The notes under the pieces: generated by a model
What the model was told of the DNA's origin: nothing
Database searches by the model: none
The model's input: only the letters and a program-made list of their open reading frames with translations
Made by a program: the position numbers and the translations under genes
Assembly: GCA_019358945.1 (NCBI GenBank)
Contig: JAHHIE010000001.1
Location: 62,001 to 126,000 of the forward strand
Origin: Stenomitos rutilans HA7619-LM2
GTDB taxonomy: Bacteria; Cyanobacteriota; Cyanobacteriia; Leptolyngbyales; Leptolyngbyaceae
Reading direction: 5' to 3'
Length of the DNA stretch: 64,000 nt
In this document: positions 60,571 to 61,288 of the stretch, one piece after another
Layout: each line of letters starts with the position of its first letter
How positions within the stretch are numbered: position 1 is the stretch's first letter

Positions 60571-61206
60571 TTAGACCAGTCCTCTCAGTAGACCGACATA
60601 AATGCCTTGAATCTCTAGCTCTTCAACGTTCATATCAACTACTGTTGGCTCGTAGGCTGTGTTGGCAGGCTGAAGTGTAATCTGCTGTCCATGCCGATAG
60701 AGATATTTGAGTGTAGTCGTCCCGTTCTTTCTCGCTGCGACGATCGTGCCGTTACGAATGGCACGCGGGTTCGTTTCTCGCCGCATGATGACGACATCGC
60801 CATGATCAATCAATGCGCCTGTCATGCTGTCGCCCCGCACCTGAAGTGCAAAATGCTGGGAACGCTCGTGCTGAGAAAGATGTACCAGTTTCGGTAAACA
60901 GGAAAGCTCCAAGTGCTGTTGCTCCTGATCAGAAAAGGTTTCTACCAGGCTATGCGCCGCGATCGCCCCAATCAGCGGAATGCCATTACTGGGGCGCAGG
61001 ATTTTGAGCGATCGAGATTTGCGGGGGGCATGGCTGATGAGTCGCTTGGTTGTCAACGCATCAATGTGAAGTTGCACCGACGCGAGCGATCGGTACCCCA
61101 ATCCTTTCTGGATTTCACGGTAGGTGGGGGCCATCCCATACTGCGCCATGAAATCCTCAATCCAGGTAAGCACCCGTTGCTGCGAGGCGGTAAGTAGCGG
61201 CTGCAT
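60571..61206 (-). CDS. lexA: LexA-like repressor with altered cleavage site
   Basis: LexA family repressor of 211 residues. The winged helix domain (1-68) has APTYREIQKGLGYRSLASVQ. The S24 latent protease domain follows, with Ser127 (VRGDSMTG) and Lys167 (TTTLKYL) in place. The autocleavage site, Ala84-Gly85 in E. coli, is Ala84-His85 here (PLIGAIAAHSLVE), and the change lies next to a HIP1 site. Cleavage may be slow or absent, so the SOS role is uncertain; several cyanobacterial LexA proteins regulate other pathways. A half-site like GTAC lies upstream at about 61222. Confidence 0.93.
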   Translation of the reverse strand: MQPLLTASQQRVLTWIEDFMAQYGMAPTYREIQKGLGYRSLASVQLHIDALTTKRLISHAPRKSRSLKILRPSNGIPLIGAIAAHSLVETFSDQEQQHLELSCLPKLVHLSQHERSQHFALQVRGDSMTGALIDHGDVVIMRRETNPRAIRNGTIVAARKNGTTTLKYLYRHGQQITLQPANTAYEPTVVDMNVEELEIQGIYVGLLRGLV

Positions 61207-61288
61207 AAAGCGACAAAAGAGCGTTTGTACTACTTTACACTATTTTTCTACTAATGGCGGTCATCTTGCCAAATCTAGCGCCCTTTAG

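Follow-up and report, generated by a model that had tools for sequence, protein, structure and literature searches.

Results

The lexA2 locus

The window, i.e., the whole stretch of 64,000 nucleotides analysed here, contains an accessory lexA gene that we have called lexA2 (Table 1). Its product scores 144.8 bits against the TIGR00498 lexA model, above the curated cut-off of 110.95, and also exceeds the cut-offs for PF01726 (N-terminal LexA DNA-binding domain) and PF00717 (C-terminal S24 domain). The alignment with E. coli LexA runs from residue 4 to 208, and in it Ala84-His85 falls on Ala84-Gly85 (chains 7b5g and 7ocj; chain 1jhf is the G85D mutant), while both members of the Ser-Lys catalytic dyad are present. 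The preliminary description had read the bond, Ser127 and Lys167 correctly. Where a canonical SOS LexA has an Ala-Gly (or Cys-Gly) bond lexA2 has Ala-His, and it does not belong to the Synechocystis type either, in which the catalytic Ser and the P1 Ala are lost, since it keeps Ser127 and Ala84.

Table 1. Features of lexA2 in the window.
Feature	Position	Strand	Basis
lexA2, accessory LexA paralogue, 211 aa	60571..61206	-	ORF with ATG start; TIGR00498, PF01726, PF00717
Predicted scissile bond Ala84-His85 (GCG CAT)	60952..60957	-	Sequence and alignments
His85 codon CAT	60952-60954	-	Sequence
Catalytic Ser127 codon	60826..60828	-	Sequence and alignments
Catalytic Lys167 codon	60706..60708	-	Sequence and alignments
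LexA DNA-binding domain, residues 5-65	61012..61194	-	PF01726 match
Putative autoregulatory box TAGTACAAACGCTC, -26 to -13 of the ATG	61219..61232	-	Motif common to orthologues in seven genomes

The AlphaFold model of the protein has the LexA fold, with a mean pLDDT of 88.1 and values of 60-64 over residues 81-100. Its best structure matches are all LexA and nearly tied: 3jso_B (Z 17.3, rmsd 8.5, 187 residues), 1jhe_A (Z 16.9, rmsd 2.3, 122 residues), a mutant said to take up the self-cleavage state (PMC3834820), and the RecA-bound 8gms (Z 16.5); the G85D structure 1jhf matched with a Z of 14.8 over fewer residues. Concerning the surroundings, an ABC1-kinase gene adjoins lexA2 in G034, G035, G036, G038 and ES-bin-22, and was not found beside it in the examined stretches of G037, FACHB-321, G015, G002, G003 and FACHB-502. 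G037 and FACHB-321 have a lexA2 with a duplicated segment at its 5' end; none was seen in the window.

A second LexA in the same genome

The assembly to which the window belongs (7.28 Mb, 99.9% complete) holds two LexA homologues, lexA2 and a gene on another contig (C19, L002:1489-2109), whose products are 43% identical. The C19 protein has the cleavage region IAAGGLVETF (Ala-Gly), with Ser and Lys present, scores higher against TIGR00498 (188.9 bits vs 144.8) and has its own upstream box, GGTACAAGTGTTCT. In the preliminary description the window protein was seen as a LexA that may no longer be under SOS control, an idea that a second canonical LexA in the genome was said to refute. Such a LexA is present, and the window protein is an accessory paralogue, not the LexA of the cell. 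LexA2 may still have a regulon of its own, given its distinct upstream motif and the lack of a LexA box before recA (see below).

Distribution of the P1' His

We surveyed 42 genomes of the order, 41 of which had a LexA at E <= 1e-10, and read the proteins at the listed places. Each of the nine best matches, which share 58-100% identity with the window protein, carries His at P1', and four more His places, with 43-47% identity, were found in genus g12. A His LexA is present in 13 of the 42 genomes (six of the seven of the window's genus, G015, G002, G003 and G017-G020), always together with one or more further LexA homologues and without internal stops in all 13. P1 is Ala in every one of them; the preceding residue is not Ala in G002, G003 and G018. 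In the alignment of 13 such proteins (A1, with 41-91% identity to the first row) there is no variation at A84, S127 or K167; the rows were chosen for having His, so the alignment is no proof that His itself is invariant. Among other relatives of the window gene are those of Leptolyngbya sp. ES-bin-22 (91%) and FACHB-321 (83%). Two further His proteins, L074 (FACHB-502) and L152 (G052, from another family), are likewise accompanied by another LexA (L078 and L200).

The g12 copy of G019 corresponds in length and place to plasmid AP017309.1 of Leptolyngbya sp. NIES-3755, ca. 4 kb from a relaxase gene, and the best plasmid match to lexA2 (NIES-3755) is also Ala-His. There was no match of at least 60% identity to lexA2 in 11 phage and 49 plasmid records, and no Ala-His among 80 loci from viral contigs, of which the pattern could read at most 18.

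We rejected a one-base sequencing error as the source of His85, because going from GGN to CAY requires two base changes, because the His is also present in orthologues from other genomes and because both of its codons are found among the seven orthologues (CAT in five genomes, CAC in two). The dN/dS of lexA2 against five congeners was 0.030-0.058 (no value was computable for G015), with dS of 0.7-2.6, so that the divergence is partly saturated. Judged from this low dN/dS and the synonymous drift of a codon that is nevertheless kept, His85 is neither an error nor a sign of decay. Regarding its origin, the tree built on all columns (127 rows, SH-aLRT 85) gave a single change to His. With P1' masked two changes were obtained (in a 125-row and an 81-row tree), although for the 81-row masked set the best tree in which the His proteins form one clade had a higher score and was not rejected (AU p = 0.56). 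Thr at P1' arose by two changes in each of the three trees.

P1 and P1' residues across a broader LexA sample

The wider comparison included 245 aligned LexA proteins, 240 of them distinct (177 cyanobacterial records and 63 others). They come from the places read in the order, 80 loci of a pattern search and, beyond the order, 85 of the 213 genomes that gave a match (386 searched), represented by the better-scoring places listed plus a choice of the rest. The set is non-random, as the 80 loci were obtained with peptide patterns that included GDSM or the AH site. The cyanobacterial proteins were Ala-Gly in 132 cases (two without the Lys column), Ala-Thr in 22, Ala-His in 15, Ala-Ser and Ala-Asp in one each, and in six P1 was not Ala. 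Outside the cyanobacteria P1' was Gly in 61 of 63, as Ala-Gly. A LexA cleavage specificity paper (Biochemistry, 2014) is said to report that Gly is preferred at P1'.

None of the 39 distinct cyanobacterial proteins whose P1' is other than Gly has lost P1 Ala, Ser or Lys (retained in 15/15 for His and 22/22 for Thr), and a loss of the protease as in Synechocystis was rejected for the His LexAs on these grounds. The five cyanobacterial LexAs without Ser, on the other hand, all have Gly at P1', and three of them have lost the P1 Ala. A changed P1' is thus not the mark of lost cleavage. Loss of P1 tracks the loss of Ser (3/6 vs 2/171, Fisher p = 0.0002, uncorrected for kinship), and a change of P1' does not significantly do so (0/39 vs 5/138, Fisher p = 0.59, also uncorrected), a test too weak to speak of any special retention of Ser where P1' has changed. 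At six RecA-contact positions, named in PMC13416735 and mapped here, the His proteins are similar to those with Ala-Gly.

In the order, 22 of the 42 genomes have Ala-Thr in their main LexA (L021, L022, L025, L026, L029, L030, L035, L041, L045, L046, L048-L053, L056, L058-L060, L062 and L063). This was the only LexA found (E <= 1e-10) in six of them (G006, G007, G009, G028, G030 and G033), the G009 copy having a damaged 3' end, broken after the Lys. Another accessory group (L011-L018 and L020) is Ala-Gly, but Ala-Ser in L018, and a GTACACNTGTTC site stands ca. 20 bp before the start in the three upstream regions examined for it (L011, L012 and L018).

Upstream motifs and candidate regulon

The LexA-box-like motif TAGTACAAAYGCTC is found upstream of the His lexA in seven genomes, starting ca. 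26 bp before the gene in six (G000, G034-G036, G038 and G015); in the seventh, G037, a duplication of the 5' end puts it 112 bp ahead of the start chosen by the script. In the same genomes the main lexA is preceded by GGTACANNTGTTCT, ca. 41 bp upstream of the start (11 sites in all). This motif, conserved before the gene in the seven genomes, departs in the window from the RGTACNNNDGTWC consensus. The motif is not tied to the His, because in G002 and G003 the 14 bases TAGTACAAATGCTC precede an Ala-Gly accessory LexA (L032 and L033), as they do the His LexA of G015; no such motif was found upstream of the His lexA of these two genomes.

The exact pattern TAGTACAAANGCTC occurs 11 times in the seven genomes, seven before the His lexA and four elsewhere, these four against an estimate of ca. 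1.4 expected by uniform chance. With one mismatch allowed there were 45 motif sites vs 44 for the reversed control pattern in these genomes, and therefore no sign of a larger regulon. The shorter GTACAAAYGCTC gave 29 exact sites vs nine for the control, about half not shortly upstream of a recognisable gene start. The four other exact copies, found in two contexts, hint at a small regulon. One pair (G000:C31 and G038:C34) lies ca. 182 bp before a gene whose 437-aa product matches N6_N4_Mtase. In both genomes a second, similar sequence is conserved 20 bp further on, and a conjugation coupling protein is encoded in the vicinity. The methyltransferase copy of G015, which has a His LexA, is 88% identical and without the box, and among the relatives of this gene the exact box was present in two of the 20 loci read. 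The other pair comprises a site ca. 30 bp before a tyrosine integrase gene that lies near a tRNA-Arg and is interrupted by an in-frame stop (G000:C66, L312:5319-6518), and the same upstream block before a 128-aa ORF without Pfam match (G037:C61), with a sub-threshold integrase match close by. For the integrase relatives, the exact box was found in one of nine loci with an ORF (of 20 loci, 11 were without ORF by the script), and weaker sites in G002 and G015.

As to recA, before which the preliminary description had proposed to look for LexA boxes, the 400 bp upstream of the main copy contained no consensus LexA site with up to one mismatch in any of the seven genomes, and sites with three mismatches to the two lexA motifs in two of them; the scan covered the main recA, and G000 and G035 each have a second copy. 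The second recA of G000 (L311, contig C31, 1344-2153) has an in-frame stop, and it is located on the same contig as the coupling protein and the motif-bearing methyltransferase.

Discussion

A probable second repressor beside the main LexA

The product of lexA2 is a real and conserved LexA variant, an accessory paralogue of Leptolyngbya-like cyanobacteria. The conserved His, the kept cutting residues and the extra copy indicate that it is probably a second switch and not a broken SOS regulator. The explanation that we prefer, with a probability of roughly 55%, is a second repressor capable of self-cleavage. LexA2, kept beside the main LexA, would bind the variant LexA box, which may overlap its own promoter, and repress its own gene, possibly along with a small number of others, until Ser127 and Lys167 released it by cutting at Ala84-His85, a reaction whose rate may be altered. 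The conservation makes such cleavage competence likely. The inducing signal might be a RecA filament, or else cleavage could proceed as in the LexA of Anabaena, for which the part of PMC13416735 available to us describes a RecA-independent, pH-dependent reaction.

The preliminary description had predicted poor or no self-cleavage. Two facts point that way, namely that most LexAs have Gly at P1' and that the G85D change (lexA3) makes E. coli LexA non-cleavable, according to PMC6363387. By analogy with this mutant, the structure of which is 1jhf, His85 could block self-cleavage and leave a constitutive repressor, one regulated through its level or through modification, in which Ser and Lys are retained for structural reasons. 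Synechocystis would offer a precedent, as PMC13416735 describes its LexA as lacking auto-cleavage and working through post-translational modification. We nevertheless consider this rather unlikely. The five LexAs that have lost Ser show the opposite pattern at the bond (P1' Gly kept in 5/5, P1 Ala lost in 3/5), all 15 His proteins have P1 Ala, Ser and Lys intact, and six genomes, one with a 3'-damaged copy, have Ala-Thr in the only LexA found; the comparison of P1' with Ser loss, however, is not significant by itself (p = 0.59). That lexA2 could be the cell's own LexA, departed from the SOS response, would agree with the recA upstream regions, free of LexA boxes within 400 bp in 7/7 genomes, but is contradicted by the Ala-Gly LexA with its own box and higher TIGR00498 score, and we hold it to be very improbable. 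Even less can be said for a decaying gene with His85 as a chance change: the duplicated 5' segment of the G037 and FACHB-321 orthologues would fit, although it was not seen in the window, and the dN/dS values, the synonymous changes of the His codon and the reading frames free of stops (13/13) contradict it.

A far more speculative version of the self-cleaving repressor, to which we give very little credence, is that His85 acts as a gate, its protonation or a bound metal timing the cut at Ala84-His85. LexA2 would then be a RecA-independent switch responsive to pH or redox and able to control mobile DNA, with its own operator keeping it separate from the main LexA. Whatever the mechanism, two natural series keep the Ser-Lys dyad, one with P1' His (accessory LexA) and one with P1' Thr (main LexA), and provide a natural test of the tolerance at P1' in S24 self-cleavage. 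In addition, the upstream boxes of the two LexA copies in one cell are not the same.

Comparison with known LexA systems

An Ala-Gly (or Cys-Gly) bond together with Ser-Lys is given as the signature of these proteases in the portion of PMC8565304 consulted, and the survey of Li et al. (2010), as far as covered by our excerpt of PMC3091678, found Ala-Gly in all its cyanobacterial LexAs but that of Synechocystis. Two lexA genes are mentioned for Cyanothece ATCC51142 in the text seen of PMC5101192. The titles and abstract beginnings of the open-licence matches listed contained no report of a LexA with P1' His or Thr.

E. coli LexA is like lexA2 in its domains (TIGR00498, PF01726 and PF00717), the Ser-Lys dyad, the P1 Ala and the presence of an upstream LexA-box-like motif; lexA2 differs in having His instead of Gly at P1', another operator sequence and the status of second copy. 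The main LexA of the order (Ala-Gly or Ala-Thr) shares with lexA2 the domains, Ser, Lys and similar RecA-contact residues, but in this genome the two are only 43% identical, their recognition-helix residues are partly different, and the box is GGTACANNTGTTCT at ca. 41 bp from the start for one and TAGTACAAAYGCTC at ca. 26 bp for the other. The plasmid LexA of NIES-3755 (AP017309.1, LEP3755_64890) is also an extra copy with Ala-His, Ser and Lys, although with 38.6% identity, a longer linker and a location on a plasmid near a relaxase gene. The LexA of Synechocystis sp. PCC 6803 is, like lexA2, cyanobacterial and altered at the cleavage site; however, it has Gly-Gly and Ser changed to Asp (PMC3091678, same excerpt), whereas lexA2 keeps the P1 Ala and the Ser. 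As described in the part of PMC3789691 at hand, LexA2 of Leptospira interrogans is likewise a second copy in which the scissile bond is unusual, with an operator of its own, but there the bond is Cys-Gly (i.e., P1 is changed and not P1'), the gene lies in a prophage-like region and depletion of the protein after UV was established by experiment.
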